From: Microscillaceae bacterium
GTDB taxonomy: Bacteria > Bacteroidota > Bacteroidia > Cytophagales > Microscillaceae
Length of the DNA stretch: 64,000 nucleotides
Direction of reading: 5' to 3'
NCBI GenBank assembly: GCA_025054775.1
Contig: JANWZA010000015.1
Coordinates: 1-64,000 of the forward strand
The notes under the pieces were generated by a model. That model searched no databases. It had not been told where the DNA came from and saw only the letters and a program-made list of their open reading frames with translations. Position 1 is the first letter of the stretch. Every line of letters begins with the position of its first letter. Both the position numbers and the translations under genes were made by a program. Below are positions 42,469-64,000 of the stretch, one piece after another.

Positions 42469-42500
42469 AAACTTTCCAAGTTTATAGACTTGGAAAGTTT
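42469..42500. repeat. AACTTTCCAAGT palindrome, copy 1 (3' of lpd)
   Basis: AAACTTTCCAAGT and ACTTGGAAAGTTT form a perfect 13-bp stem around TTATAG, 62 bp after the lpd stop. Related copies follow the desaturase gene (44581-44612) and ccoP (62591-62627), all on the same side of minus-strand genes. The element may serve as terminator or 3'-end stabiliser as well as being a repeat. Confidence 0.8.
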
Positions 42501-58685: not shown

Positions 58686-59396
58686 CTACTCAGTTACTTT
58701 GCAACACTTCATTTCAATTTGCTGACCATATTCTATTAGTTGAGGGCTTAGATAAGGTATTCCCAAATTTAGCCCTCGCAAAATGAATAAAATAGCTAAT
58801 ACAACTAAAAAAACAGGCACAAGCTGAAACGCTTTTCGCTTGAGAGTTGGAAAAACAAACCTTCCAGCCAAACTCACCACAAGCATAGCAGGAATGGTCG
58901 CTAAACCAAAAATAATCATATAAAGTGCGGATTCGGCTATGTTTCCTGTGGCTAAAGCTCCTGCAAGAGCAAAATAAATCAATCCACAAGGCAAAAAACC
59001 ATTCAAAATACCTATAAGTAGAAATGAAGAAGTATTCTTTTGTTGTAGCAAACGCCCTAATTTGGCTTTGAGCCACTGCGTAAAAGGTTGAAATATGTTG
59101 AGCCAATCTATCGTATGGTAAAACGTAGGAAAAACAACTAATGTGAGTAACAAAATACCCACTGCCACTGAGAGCATTTGTTGAGAAATCCCCAAGAGCA
59201 ATCCCTTGCCCACTAATCCAACCACAACTCCCAAAAATGCATAGGTAATTACTCTCCCTAAATTATAGACAATCCTATTCCACAACATTTGGTAAAAATA
59301 TTTGTTATCAATAGGCAAAGCCAGAGCAATAGCCCCGCACATACCCATACAGTGAATACTACCTAACAAGCCTAATATTAGTGCCGAGTATAACAT
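58686..59396 (-). CDS. SafE/TauE-type membrane protein of the cbb3 cluster
   Basis: The 236-residue protein has six helices and opens ALILGLLGSIHCMGMCGAIA, the Cys/Met-rich motif of the subfamily found next to cbb3 oxidase genes (often called sulfite exporter TauE/SafE). The CMGMC motif suggests metal, probably copper, handling (inference). It ends the oxidase cluster, 60 bp after ccoH. Confidence 0.87.
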   Translation of the reverse strand: MLYSALILGLLGSIHCMGMCGAIALALPIDNKYFYQMLWNRIVYNLGRVITYAFLGVVVGLVGKGLLLGISQQMLSVAVGILLLTLVVFPTFYHTIDWLNIFQPFTQWLKAKLGRLLQQKNTSSFLLIGILNGFLPCGLIYFALAGALATGNIAESALYMIIFGLATIPAMLVVSLAGRFVFPTLKRKAFQLVPVFLVVLAILFILRGLNLGIPYLSPQLIEYGQQIEMKCCKVTE

Positions 59397-59456: not shown

Positions 59457-59954
59457 CTACCGTTTCTGCTTCTTGGCTTGTTCTTCTTTTAATAGTTCGG
59501 CTTGCAGTTTTACTTTTCCTTGCGGCGTGATAGCGAACTTCTGCTCCAAAAAGTAACCTTTATTACCAAGAGTCCAATCTACTTTTATTCGCCACAAGCC
59601 TTGGGCAAGGGTTTGCAAAGGAATAACTTGCCTGCCTTGATTATCAAGCACAAGCGGAATTTGTATATCTTTTCGCTTATCCGAAGGGCGAAAAAGTAAG
59701 ATACTCCCCTTATCAGCTCGGTTATTGAGTGTAAGTATTAAGGCATGATTTTCAGCATGATAGCTTAACTCTGGCTGATGGCTTAAAGCCTGCGTATTGC
59801 GAATTTTATCTATTTCTTTTTCATAAGCCAACTCTTGTTTGTAATAGTCTTTGGCTACCAAATCAATATTGATACTATATGAAAAGAAAACCAACGTAAG
59901 TATAAAGGCAACAAAGCCCAAATACACGAACATAATTTTATAGCCCCAGTTCAT
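59457..59954 (-). CDS. ccoH: FixH/CcoH-type cbb3 assembly protein
   Basis: The 165-residue protein has one N-terminal membrane helix (MFVYLGFVAFILTLVFFSYS) and a periplasmic beta-sandwich with GLWRIKVDWTLGNKGYFLEQ. NIDLVAKDYYKQELAYEKEI after the helix is the family hallmark. CcoH stabilises the cbb3 subunits during assembly. It follows ccoG by 45 bp. Confidence 0.92.
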   Translation of the reverse strand: MNWGYKIMFVYLGFVAFILTLVFFSYSINIDLVAKDYYKQELAYEKEIDKIRNTQALSHQPELSYHAENHALILTLNNRADKGSILLFRPSDKRKDIQIPLVLDNQGRQVIPLQTLAQGLWRIKVDWTLGNKGYFLEQKFAITPQGKVKLQAELLKEEQAKKQKR

Positions 59955-59999: not shown

Positions 60000-61436
60000 C
60001 TACTCCACAGGTCCATTGAAAGTTGTTTTTATTGTTTCTAACAAGCGGTCAGTAGTCCAAACCTCTACTTGAATTTTGGTTTTTACTTTTTTGATATTTT
60101 TAGGATTCGTTTCAATGAAAAGTACAAAATCAGTAGTAGTAGCTTTTTTAGCAATGTTTTTATCGCCTACAATACGCACTGTTCCCCAATTATCTTTTAC
60201 CTTGAAATAAATTGGTAAGTCTTCGTTAGTTTTGTTAGCAATCTGCACATTATAGAGGTTAGAGATATTACCATTTTTTTGCTCTTGATAGAGCATACCT
60301 GGTACTCGTAAAAAGGTAGTTTCTACTTCTGTACGAATAGAAATGAAAAAAACTTGTAAGCTAATTAGTATTAGCAATACTGCTGTATATCCTATTATTC
60401 TGGGAGTAACTCTAAAAGGAACCTTATTAACAATATTATTGTAAGAAGCGTATCGTACCAAACCACGTGGTTTGCCGATTTTATCCATTACCTGGTCGCA
60501 GGCATCAATGCAAGCTGTGCAATTTATACATTCCAATTGCGTTCCATTGCGAATATCAATTCCTGTAGGGCAGACTTGCACGCAAAGCCCACAATCAATA
60601 CAATCCCCTTGCTTTTGAGAGGTGCTATCGGTTAGCAAATTAGTTTGTTCTTGTCTATTTTTTTTCAACTTACCACGTGGCTCTCCTCTTACATGGTCAT
60701 AAGCAATTACGATAGAGTCCTTGGAAAGTAGTACACTTTGCAGTCTGCCATAAGGGCAAACAATAATACATGCTTGCTCGCGTAGATAGGCGAATACAAA
60801 AAAGAAAATCCCCGTGAAAGCTACTAAACCAATAAACCCAGGCAAATTATTTATAGGATTACTTTGCACAATTTGAAATACTTTTTCATAGCCTATGAGG
60901 TAAGCCATAAGCGTATGGGCTATGATAATAGAAATAAGCAGAAATATACTAAACTTGGCAGTCTTTCGTAGAAATTTATCCAAATCCCATGGACGAGCAT
61001 TGAGCTTACGTTGTTGGTTAGCATCACCTTCAATCCAGTATTCAATTTTACGAAAAACCATTTCCATCATAACGGTTTGTGGGCACGTCCAGCCACACCA
61101 TAACCTACCATACACCACTGTAAAGAGAATTACAAATACAAAAAAACTTAGCATCGTGCCTGCAAACAAGTGAAAATCTTGTGGCAGAAATACGAAACCA
61201 AAAATGCTAAATTTTCGCTCAAAAATATTAAATAAAAACAACGGATTGCCATTGATTTTAACGAATGGTACACCAAAAAGTATAATTAAGAGTACCACTG
61301 TAACTGCAACACGGTATCTGTGAAAACGCCCGCTTGGTTTTTTGGGATAAATCCATACGCGTTTGCCTCGCTCATCTACCGAAGAGAGCTTATCACGAAA
61401 TGCTTCTTTATCCTCTATAATTTCTATATTTTCCAT
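60000..61436 (-). CDS. ccoG: CcoG (FixG/RdxA), iron-sulfur copper reductase for cbb3 assembly
   Basis: The 478-residue protein has five or six helices and WCGWTCPQTVMMEMVFRKIE near residue 112. The two ferredoxin-like clusters are CIDCGLCVQVCPTG and CINCTACIDACDQVM near residues 280-315, followed by a C-terminal Ig-like domain (VRIVGDKNIAKKATTTDFVL). CcoG reduces Cu2+ to Cu+ for CcoN assembly. It follows the second globin gene by 86 bp, with a strong hairpin between. Confidence 0.95.
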   Translation of the reverse strand: MENIEIIEDKEAFRDKLSSVDERGKRVWIYPKKPSGRFHRYRVAVTVVLLIILFGVPFVKINGNPLFLFNIFERKFSIFGFVFLPQDFHLFAGTMLSFFVFVILFTVVYGRLWCGWTCPQTVMMEMVFRKIEYWIEGDANQQRKLNARPWDLDKFLRKTAKFSIFLLISIIIAHTLMAYLIGYEKVFQIVQSNPINNLPGFIGLVAFTGIFFFVFAYLREQACIIVCPYGRLQSVLLSKDSIVIAYDHVRGEPRGKLKKNRQEQTNLLTDSTSQKQGDCIDCGLCVQVCPTGIDIRNGTQLECINCTACIDACDQVMDKIGKPRGLVRYASYNNIVNKVPFRVTPRIIGYTAVLLILISLQVFFISIRTEVETTFLRVPGMLYQEQKNGNISNLYNVQIANKTNEDLPIYFKVKDNWGTVRIVGDKNIAKKATTTDFVLFIETNPKNIKKVKTKIQVEVWTTDRLLETIKTTFNGPVE

Positions 61437-61472: not shown

Positions 61473-61512
61473 TACTTACGCTTCTCACTTTTTTAGAGTG
61501 AGAAGCATAAGT
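61473..61512 (-). promoter_or_regulatory. Strong hairpin between the globin and ccoG genes
   Basis: TACTTACGCTTCTCACT (61473-61489) and AGTGAGAAGCATAAGTA (61496-61512) form a stem of about 17 bp with one mismatch around TTTTTAG. It begins 10 bp after the globin stop and ends 36 bp before the ccoG start, and has no T-run on the transcribed side. It may set differential expression within the operon by mRNA processing. Confidence 0.6.
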
Positions 61513-61522
61513 ATTAGTTAGT

Positions 61523-62002
61523 TTATTTTCTCAAAGTTGCATAGCTGTTCGTAGGTATTTTTTTTTCCTGTTTTTGTGCTTTTTGCTCGGCAGCAATAGC
61601 TTTCATATCCTCTATCATAGCTTGCGCAATGAGGTCAAATAGCTCCTCCCAAGCTTGTTTTAGATTAGCACTCCATTGCTTTTGTAAAGCTTCCTCTAAC
61701 ATAGCCATAAAAGCTACCTTAAAGGCTCTAAAATGTTCTGGTTTTACACCATAGTAGATATGCCTTGAAGCCAAACTATGCAATTCTTTGCGAAGGTCAT
61801 CAAGTTTATCTAATTTAGTAATCATTACAGCAACCGCATGAATTAGCTTGCGGTCTTGTGATACAATATCATTTTTGAATAATGGCTTAATTTCAGGGTA
61901 AAGCGTAAAAAGTTTGTTGTAGAAAACTGCTCCTGCTTTCTCTACGTGTATTACTACGTTTACCCAGCTTTCTTTAATAAGTTTGATTTGTGCTGCATTC
62001 AT
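61523..62002 (-). CDS. Single-domain globin, paralogue 2
   Basis: The 159-residue protein is a three-over-three globin: IKLIKESWVNVV (A helix), VFYNKLFTLYPEIKPLF (B/C), VSQDRKLIHAVAVMI with Gln49 at the probable distal E7 position, and LASRHIYYGVKPEHF with the proximal His at H81. A Lys/Gln-rich tail follows. It shares the fold and most signature positions with the adjacent globin. Likely roles are O2 or NO binding near the high-affinity oxidase, possibly NO detoxification if a reductase partner exists (inference). Confidence 0.92.
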   Translation of the reverse strand: MNAAQIKLIKESWVNVVIHVEKAGAVFYNKLFTLYPEIKPLFKNDIVSQDRKLIHAVAVMITKLDKLDDLRKELHSLASRHIYYGVKPEHFRAFKVAFMAMLEEALQKQWSANLKQAWEELFDLIAQAMIEDMKAIAAEQKAQKQEKKIPTNSYATLRK

Positions 62003-62097
62003 AAGTGAAAAATTGTGCTTAGCTTAATATAAAAAAATAAAATATTTTCTCAATAGAATTTTGTAGTTGAAATACAATTTGTAATTTTACGGCAAAA

Positions 62098-62568
62098 TTA
62101 CAATTTAATTTTAATTCTTGCAATTTGTTTTTGGCTCTCTAAATTTTGCATAGCTACTATAATAGCCTGTGAAATTTCAGAGAAAACAACCTCCCAAGCA
62201 TTTTGTAAGGTTCTATCCCAAAAATCCTCAGAAGATAATACTTGTTCAATCATATACATAAATGCTTCCTTGAAAGGAACAAAATGCTTTACCTCTACTC
62301 CATATGCTAAATGCTTACTTGCTAACCAAGTGATTTCGGCATGAATGTTCTCCATTCGTTCTATTTTGTTCACAATCAAAGCGATAGCCATAATTAGCTT
62401 TCGGTTTTGGCTACGCGTGTCTGTGGGAAAAAGATACCTCAACTCAGGGTTGTTTCTGAATAAATAGTCATAAAATATTTGCCCTGCTTCGTTAGCTTTG
62501 CCCACAATCACAAGCCATGAATTTTGCACTAATTTTATATTTTCTTCAGTTATCATAATTTTAGCCAA
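62098..62568 (-). CDS. Single-domain globin, paralogue 1
   Basis: The 156-residue protein has IKLVQNSWLVIV, IFYDYLFRNNPELRYLF, TRSQNRKLIMAIALIV with Gln54 at the likely E7 position, and LASKHLAYGVEVKHF with proximal His H86. It lies between ccoP (80-bp gap containing a palindromic repeat) and the second globin (95-bp gap), all on one strand, so the three probably share expression with the oxidase. Confidence 0.92.
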   Translation of the reverse strand: MAKIMITEENIKLVQNSWLVIVGKANEAGQIFYDYLFRNNPELRYLFPTDTRSQNRKLIMAIALIVNKIERMENIHAEITWLASKHLAYGVEVKHFVPFKEAFMYMIEQVLSSEDFWDRTLQNAWEVVFSEISQAIIVAMQNLESQKQIARIKIKL

Positions 62569-62590
62569 ATAAGAGTATTTTATGCTACAT

Positions 62591-62627
62591 TTGCACTTTC
62601 CAAGTCATACAAGACTTGGAAAGCACA
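62591..62627. repeat. AACTTTCCAAGT palindrome, copy 3 (3' of ccoP)
   Basis: CTTTCCAAGTC and GACTTGGAAAG pair perfectly (11 bp) around ATACAA, with TTG/CAA ends adding to the stem. It lies 22 bp after the ccoP stop and 23 bp before the globin ATG, so it may partly separate oxidase and globin expression. Confidence 0.8.
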
Positions 62628-62648
62628 AGATTAGTTAATAATTGTGTT

Positions 62649-63575
62649 CTATTTGGTAGCTACAGGTGCTTTATAAAGTTGCCCTTGTGGGGGCTTAGCA
62701 TTAGGCGGATTAGTGCCTTGTAAACTCAAAATATAGTTAGCCACGTTTTGTATTTCAACAGGTTTGAGTTGTTGTTGCCAAGAAATCATTCCTTTTTGCG
62801 GCACACCATATTTAATGGTTTTGAATATATCATTGATTGAGCCACCATGTAGCCAGTACTCATCGGTAAGGTTTGGTCCTACTCCTCCTTCTCCTAAGGC
62901 CCCATGACAGGCGGCGCATTTACTTTGGTAAATATTCTTACCTTCAGCAAGTTCTTTTTCTGATTTTACTATTTTTACCGTTTTCTCGTCAATGCTATTT
63001 GCATTTTTCTTTTGGTACTCTGCAATTTGTATTTCGGCTTGTTTTACTTCTGCTTGATATTCAGCCTCAGAGAGAGGGAAGAAACCAATAACGTGATAAA
63101 GAAACAAATATGCTGCAGAGAAAGCAATAGTAGCATAAAACATATATACCCACCAAGGAGGAAGGTGGTTGTTAAGCTCTTTTATACCATCATAATTGTG
63201 ATCTAGTATTATTTCATGTTCACGGCTTACAGGAATAGCTCTTGTCATGCGTTTCTCAAAAGCTTTCCACATAGAGGAGAACATACCTTCCTGAGCTAAT
63301 TCAGGACTTTTCTTTAAGACAACTAACTGAACAACATACAAACTATACAGGGCTGTAATTAAGGTAAGCACTGCCACTACAATAGTTAGAGTAACTACTA
63401 TAATTATCAGCCATTCGATTTGTGTAATAGGAGCAGTACTTGCCTGTGCCTTTGCTTGAAGTGTACTGATTAGCCCTGCGAATATGAGCAATGGTACTAA
63501 AATAGGCTTCCATTGCAGTGGAAAGGCAAACTGTCTGCCTAGCCATTCTTTTATATTTTGCACTATACGTATCAT
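62649..63575 (-). CDS. ccoP: cbb3-type cytochrome c oxidase subunit III (CcoP)
   Basis: The 308-residue protein has a signal-like N-terminal helix (LLIFAGLISTLQAKAQAS), two further helices and a C-terminal cytochrome c domain with one haem site, CAACH, near residue 223, plus the axial Met in KGMISW. Proteobacterial CcoP has two CxxCH motifs; the Bacteroidota form has one, as here. It passes electrons from donors to CcoO/CcoN. It follows ccoQ by 9 bp. Confidence 0.95.
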   Translation of the reverse strand: MIRIVQNIKEWLGRQFAFPLQWKPILVPLLIFAGLISTLQAKAQASTAPITQIEWLIIIVVTLTIVVAVLTLITALYSLYVVQLVVLKKSPELAQEGMFSSMWKAFEKRMTRAIPVSREHEIILDHNYDGIKELNNHLPPWWVYMFYATIAFSAAYLFLYHVIGFFPLSEAEYQAEVKQAEIQIAEYQKKNANSIDEKTVKIVKSEKELAEGKNIYQSKCAACHGALGEGGVGPNLTDEYWLHGGSINDIFKTIKYGVPQKGMISWQQQLKPVEIQNVANYILSLQGTNPPNAKPPQGQLYKAPVATK

Positions 63576-63584
63576 ATTTCTTTT

Positions 63585-63788
63585 TTATTCTTTTGAAGTG
63601 AATGATGAATGATTAGTGTTTGTTGGCACATCGTCTTGCAGAGGCATATTATTCATTCGTTCTATGTGTGGCTTTTTCATTAAAGCTACATAAACTAGTA
63701 GCCCTACGAAAAAGCTAACAAAAATAATGAGCGAAATAACTGGATACACCTCTACTGACTTAATTTGTTCAAAATAATGCTTAAACAT
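63585..63788 (-). CDS. ccoQ: CcoQ-like small subunit
   Basis: The 67-residue protein has one membrane helix (VISLIIFVSFFVGLLVYVAL) followed by a charged tail, the usual CcoQ/FixQ form that stabilises the oxidase. It lies between the ccoO end and ccoP with short gaps. Confidence 0.88.
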   Translation of the reverse strand: MFKHYFEQIKSVEVYPVISLIIFVSFFVGLLVYVALMKKPHIERMNNMPLQDDVPTNTNHSSFTSKE

Positions 63789-63816: not shown

Positions 63817-64000
63817 TTATTTAGCTTGATTGAGCGTTATATCATTTTTTACCTTGATATCCGTACCTAAACGTTGCATATAAGCAATCAAGGCTACAAT
63901 TTCTTTATTTTCTGACACTTTAATTTTATCCGCTTTTAAGTTTTCTACAATCTTTTTAGCTTGTTTTTCCATATCTTTGGGGGCTATGTCTTCATAACCC
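63817..64000 (-). CDS. ccoO: cbb3 oxidase subunit II (CcoO, or CcoN-CcoO fusion), C-terminal part
   Basis: The last 60 codons of a gene running off the window edge encode GYEDIAPKDMEKQAKKIVEN and then EIVALIAYMQRLGTDIKV near the stop, which is the CcoO C-terminus. In many Bacteroidota ccoN and ccoO are fused; that cannot be told here. It is the upstream gene of the cluster, 28 bp before ccoQ. Confidence 0.9.
   Translation of the reverse strand, partial: GYEDIAPKDMEKQAKKIVENLKADKIKVSENKEIVALIAYMQRLGTDIKVKNDITLNQAK

Follow-up and report, generated by a model that had tools for sequence, protein, structure and literature searches.

The question of O2 delivery to terminal oxidases by bacterial globins has long been debated on the example of Vitreoscilla haemoglobin (VHb), to a large extent with VHb in foreign hosts. 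Another bacterial globin, Campylobacter Cgb, serves NO detoxification under an NO regulator, and neither Cgb nor the Methylacidiphilum globins HGbI and HGbRL are known to lie in a cbb3 oxidase cluster. VHb is reported to be controlled by FNR and to bind subunit I of its terminal oxidase (PMC8398370). HGbI has a very high O2 affinity, which suits delivery poorly, and HGbRL carries a Roadblock domain and swapped helices (PMC4476040). The NmpR oxygen regulon of Myxococcus places an O2-binding protein under the same control as cbb3; this protein is a hemerythrin, encoded as a hemN-hemerythrin pair in a separate operon (PMC11841059). Among the open-access papers searched, no title or abstract opening named a globin in a cbb3 cluster.

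The window analysed here covers the opening 64 kb of a contig 91.8 kb long, from a 3.0-Mb genome (G000). Its minus strand carries the order ccoNO-Q-P-globA-globB-ccoG-ccoH-dsbD-like (Table 1), which follows the ccoNOQP-ccoGH cluster in gene content and order, except that two globin genes are inserted between ccoP and ccoG. Since ccoN, ccoO, ccoQ, ccoP, ccoG and ccoH were all found, this is a cbb3 oxidase gene cluster, with ccoQ and ccoP scoring below the curated cut-offs of FixQ and TIGR00782. The genes named in the original prediction are thus present, but ccoN and ccoO form a single fused gene rather than two; the whole gene (contig 63817-65955, an ORF of 712 aa seen in stretch L048) runs past the window end. 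The DsbD_2-type gene adjoins ccoH in all eight family stretches with ccoH, the window's own counted. As had been predicted, two intact single-domain globins lie between ccoP and ccoG on the same strand, which was confirmed by their ORFs (156 and 159 aa, free of internal stops) and Pfam matches, and the translations bear out the proximal His in SKHLAYGV and SRHIYYGV. The globA ORF was listed from a TTG, and the ATG at 62556 is preferred, in agreement with homologues.

Table 1. Features of the globin-containing cbb3 cluster (positions in the window).
Feature	Position	Strand	Evidence or remark
Fused ccoNO, 3' end	63817..64000	-	FixO match; COX1 match
ccoQ	63585..63788	-	FixQ 1.2e-05, 25.6 bits, below Pfam cut-off 29; position
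ccoP	62649..63575	-	FixP_N, Cytochrome_CBB3; TIGR00782 at 115.2 bits, under the cut-off
Hairpin of 16 bp, ccoP-globA spacer	62591..62628	-	interspersed TTCCAAG..CTTGGAA palindrome
globA, single-domain globin	62098..62568	-	Pfam Globin 2.9e-11; model matches globins
Promoter-like site for globB, end of globA	62093..62123	-	Bacteroidota-type TTG-N20-TAATTTTG; weak evidence
globB, single-domain globin	61523..62002	-	Pfam Globin 7.7e-19; model matches HGbI first
17-bp hairpin between globB and ccoG	61473..61513	-	one copy in window
ccoG	60000..61436	-	TIGR02745 435.2 bits vs cut-off 316.7
ccoH	59457..59954	-	FixH 5.1e-21
DsbD_2-type membrane protein of cco cluster	58686..59396	-	PF13386 2.1e-47

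globA and globB are the only PF00042 matches in the genome, in which neither a truncated globin (PF01152) nor a cytochrome bd was matched. Two genes of the genome match COX1, namely ccoNO and one gene beside a subunit-II gene, the latter looking, by eye, like an aa3/caa3-like oxidase; neither resembles norB. No high-affinity oxidase other than the cbb3 enzyme was found.

The two globins share 38-40% identity and score 44.3 bits (globA) and 68.7 bits (globB) against Pfam Globin (cut-off 22), with no other Pfam family above its cut-off. The best PDB sequence match for both is HGbRL, and by sequence and fold their nearest solved relatives are the Methylacidiphilum proteins HGbRL (globin domain, 3wfw/3wfx) and HGbI (3s1i/3ubc), best or near-best matches with which TyrB10, GlnE7 and LysE10 are common. 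AlphaFold models (from small input alignments of 4 and 5 sequences; pLDDT 86.6 for globB and 89.5 for globA) retrieved globins in a fold search, in which Hell's Gate globin I ranked first for globB and second for globA. HGbRL was matched at a TM of only about 0.4, because its fold is domain-swapped; globA and globB are single-domain proteins and neither model shows swapped helices. They also differ from HGbI and HGbRL at G5, which is Phe in both and Tyr in the HGbI and HGbRL matches. VHb was likewise a fold match, at 18-22% identity in the fold alignments, and the single-domain Campylobacter Cgb (2wy4) matched both proteins.

Helix positions are named here with the help of PMC4476040. A 72-row globin alignment places TyrB10, PheCD1, GlnE7, LysE10, LeuE11 and HisF8 in both proteins. 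LysE10 is not special to the pair, because 63 of the 72 rows keep it. With a one-domain globin fold, HisF8 and PheCD1, both are single-domain globins; TyrB10, GlnE7, close sequence kinship and the lack of a helix D (neither model has a separate helix between C and E) make them HGbI-like. The distal pocket (TyrB10, PheCD1, GlnE7) resembles that of flavohaemoglobins (Hmp/FHP). Unlike flavohaemoglobins, however, globA and globB have no C-terminal FAD/NAD reductase module and are without the proximal residues as far as the alignment tells: TyrG5 is replaced by Phe in both, as in all 14 family globins, and the H-helix Glu aligns with Met in a by-eye reading. Judged by these residues, both proteins should bind O2 and NO. 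A side observation is that both end in Lys-rich C-terminal extensions (61523-61600 and 62098-62140), absent from the globins of G003, G012 and G009, for which contact with the membrane or a partner is possible.

Further analysis covered 241 genomes of the order, 395 of the class and 15 of the family. Stretches around single-domain globins, together with comparison stretches, were fetched and searched with the cluster proteins. Of 66 stretches 60 held a globin, the other 6 being family stretches taken for their ccoG or cco genes; some reach contig ends, including the globin contigs of G001 and G004, and the wide-flank set leaves out 31 order-sample globin matches in open frames above 390 aa (flavohaemoglobin size or long fusions). 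Five of the 15 family genomes, from 4 genera, have a globin no more than 2 kb downstream of ccoP. It follows ccoP immediately in G000, G003, G012 and G009. G000 has two globins and G003 and G012 one each between ccoP and ccoG; G009 has two after ccoP, and in G006 a single globin lies about 1.7 kb past ccoP with an opposite-strand ORF intervening, ccoG being on a separate contig in these last two. Across the 4 genera the order is kept even though identities of the globins and of ccoP are down to about 40-50%. For the genes themselves chance is of no concern, and the neighbourhood is partly common to related genera.

The same arrangement is lineage-restricted, and in the order and class samples it was seen in one family only. 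Globins beside cco genes were found in 5 of the 60 globin stretches, all within the window's family, in none of the other 5 family stretches and in none of the 50 from the rest of the order. At 1e-10 the family globin profile matched 16 of the 395 class genomes; none of the five stretches from outside the order with single-domain matches has cco genes (the G340 and G455 stretches reach a contig end), and the remaining class matches outside the order are of flavohaemoglobin size. A scan of genome contigs gave 4 loci only, all from two genomes already sampled. Within the family, ccoP is directly followed by ccoG in G001, G005 and G010. The globins of G001 and G005 stand elsewhere than the cco cluster (that of G001 near a contig end), while in G010 and G011 ccoG was matched but no globin. 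The four globins of G004 are on three contigs, two of them shorter than 5 kb, whose fetched parts contain no cco match; G001, G005 and G004 thus have ccoG and globins that were not seen together. Of the ccoP-globin-globin-ccoG order proposed for a search across Bacteroidota, the two samples show a globin within 2 kb of ccoP in 5 genomes of 4 genera and the exact two-globin order in G000 only, with none outside the family.

Co-occurrence was also examined at the level of whole genomes. Of the 241 order genomes, 69 carry a PF00042 globin and 156 a ccoG match; ccoG was matched in 62 of the 69 globin genomes (7 lack it) against 94 of the 172 globin-free ones, counts that ignore kinship and include flavohaemoglobins. 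Within the family, a PF00042 globin occurs in 8 of the 10 genomes that match ccoG and in none of the 5 that do not (Fisher p 0.007, kinship ignored).

A globin tree had been suggested as a check for a local duplication. The row set included one long protein (L103) trimmed to 160 aa, two flavohaemoglobins trimmed to 145 aa, and an L109 row that comes from a match with an internal stop and begins at a later ATG. In the 72-row tree globA joins the G009 and G001 globins (92/60) and globB joins a G004 globin (98/85), and the two G009 globins are a separate, later duplication of the ccoP-linked globin (100/99). Moreover, two extra residues before the G-H Trp occur in only 4 of the 72 rows, those of globA, both G009 globins and the G001 globin. 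Young local duplication is not favoured by these placements and the insertion, though the AU test does not reject globA and globB as sisters (p 0.203 with 72 rows, 0.126 with 17). Resolution is poor in the 17-row tree, in which 4 of 14 inner branches are starred, and the tree lacks a clade of all A-type rows, which is 2.56 log units worse (p 0.156). A recent duplication is thus improbable as the origin of the pair, and globB is likely an older paralogue. From the grouping and the insertion common with G009, the globA type stands behind ccoP in two genera and probably did in their ancestor.

Upstream of ccoNO, a TGAC-N4-GTCA box of the CRP/FNR type lies within 200 nt in all seven family loci with a visible start. 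In six of the seven, a Bacteroidota-type -7 element (TAnnTTTG) begins exactly 57 nt after the box start, two of these six being from one genus and 97% alike here. This spacing would suit binding of a CRP/FNR-type activator about 60 nt ahead of the transcription start. In the window genome the combination occurs once, at contig 66000-66064 (L048 11000-11064), outside the window, and no wider regulon was recognised there with the strict box and -7 pattern. The promoter block of the six loci also holds, at fixed spacing, a T-rich stretch and a common ATCAT-like stretch, which may be a second half-site. No FNR-type box precedes globA or globB themselves. As a general feature before globins such boxes were rejected: the loose TGAY-N4-RTCA occurs in 4 of 70 globin upstream regions (two pairs of congeneric genomes) against 1.1-1.6 expected, and the strict form in 1 of 70. 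Control of the VHb type by an FNR-type regulator would thus have its box before ccoNO and none before the globins, which would be reached by read-through.

Read-through bears on what follows ccoP, which was compared over 160 nt in eight genomes. G009, G006 and G010 show a T-tailed hairpin there, and G005 has a weaker one; no terminator-like site was found in G000, G003 and G012, where ccoP, globin and ccoG are contiguous, nor a T-tailed hairpin in G001 by the same definition. The pattern fits read-through in contiguous clusters, in what are eight genomes only; with no intrinsic terminator in the way, transcription could continue from ccoP to the globins and ccoG. Of the genomes in which ccoG is set apart, G006 has a box before the gene, and G009 and G004 have none; in G010 ccoG has its own box and lies behind the terminator. 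The G009 hairpin sits between ccoP and the globins. The promoter-like site of globB, for which the Bacteroidota consensus was used, speaks weakly against a single transcript; over 75 kb the minus strand has 21 such sites where 5.95 would be expected.

The palindrome before globA and the hairpin after globB are both present as described, the second just beyond the interval first given for the pair. Each folds better than all of 200 shuffles (z -5.97 and -7.25), the globA-globB spacer has no structure (z 0.00), and Rfam gave no match in the window at gathering scores. The first hairpin was rejected as a specific regulator, as it is one of 10 copies of TTCCAAG..CTTGGAA in the genome (reversed control 0). 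A further window copy lies at 42474-42495 (within 42469-42500), likewise between two ORFs. Relatives have hairpins of different sequence behind ccoP, some terminator-like with a T run. The idea that local RNA structures set globin dosage is therefore unsupported, because the first hairpin is an interspersed palindrome, and the hairpins behind ccoP may be ordinary 3'-end or processing elements.

The locus is a genuine variant of a known cluster, confined to one lineage and not categorically new, and its partly kept neighbourhood hints that the globins serve cbb3. The suggested link of the globins with the oxidase gains support from the order in 5 genomes of 4 genera, the family co-occurrence and the FNR-type site at the ccoNO promoter, and is plausible; O2 buffering or NO shielding would be candidate roles within it. 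On the computed gene order, its partial conservation, the globin fold, the pocket residues and the promoter box, it is tentatively proposed that globA and globB are accessory globins, induced at low O2, that would handle O2 for cbb3; this is quite possible, if short of probable. They would be the cytoplasmic haem globins of the cbb3 gene set. A CRP/FNR-type activator upstream of ccoNO would turn the cluster on at low O2, transcription would pass ccoP into the globins and ccoG, and the globins would keep O2 at the membrane's inner face and so aid the oxidase when O2 is scarce, as has been proposed for VHb. Gene order, the intact pocket, the box at ccoNO, globin/ccoG co-occurrence and the absence of other globins in the genome argue for such O2 handling; the lack of an FNR box at the globins, the globB promoter-like site, the G009 hairpin, the very high O2 affinity of HGbI and the restriction to one lineage argue against it. 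VHb is a comparable single-domain globin, one tied to a terminal oxidase and to FNR control (PMC8398370); its partner is of the bo type and its link biochemical, that of globA and globB with cbb3 being known here from genomes alone. It is doubtful that the pair goes further, as dedicated cbb3 accessory proteins joined in a heterodimer or relay, there to load O2 (or take away NO) at the enzyme, which would make it one of few bacterial globins genetically wired to a specific terminal oxidase.

The main rival, second after O2 handling and rather unlikely, is that oxygenated globins convert NO to nitrate (NO dioxygenase) or scavenge it, keeping the NO-sensitive cbb3 site free. CRP/FNR-type boxes serve NO regulators too, so the ccoNO box would suit this, as do the TyrB10/GlnE7 pocket of flavohaemoglobins and the sole NCBIfam match of both proteins, NO-inducible flavohaemoprotein (52.1 and 59.1 bits, far below the cut-off of 432). 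The globins could also fill a gap in NO defence, because no flavohaemoglobin, truncated globin or norB-like COX1 gene was found in the genome. The same proteins nevertheless lack a reductase domain, TyrG5 and the H-helix Glu, and no NO-metabolism gene lies in the cbb3 cluster. Somewhat less likely still is that the globins are incidental neighbours, placed in the cluster by descent, with their own expression and an unrelated task. The restriction to one family, the three genomes that join ccoP and ccoG directly, the possible globB promoter, the missing box before the globins and the G009 hairpin ahead of its globins would all suit mere proximity; an order kept in 4 genera despite about 40-50% identity, and the separate duplication of the ccoP-linked globin in G009, argue against it. 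It is very improbable that the pair are haem or O2/NO sensors, hexacoordinate Lys-His globins of the HGbRL type whose shape shifts when a ligand binds and which signal to cbb3 assembly proteins. HGbRL is the best PDB sequence match of both, and LysE10, its reported sixth ligand (PMC4476040), is kept; however, the proteins have no output domain, their models match HGbI well and HGbRL poorly, and this Lys is common among globins.

The link is native, spans several genera and sits in an oxidase cluster with an FNR-type promoter, and is therefore testable in a natural setting, for which relatives with one, two or no globins in the same cluster form a ready comparison set. Tandem globins were also seen elsewhere. 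G340 has a pair (L135 2336-6701) whose second member is part of a 1286-aa ORF, with a CheW-like gene after it, and resembles, by eye, a globin-coupled chemoreceptor. L090 and L108 show two adjoining single-domain globins unlinked to cco genes, the second with two FNR-like boxes at about -110 and -59.
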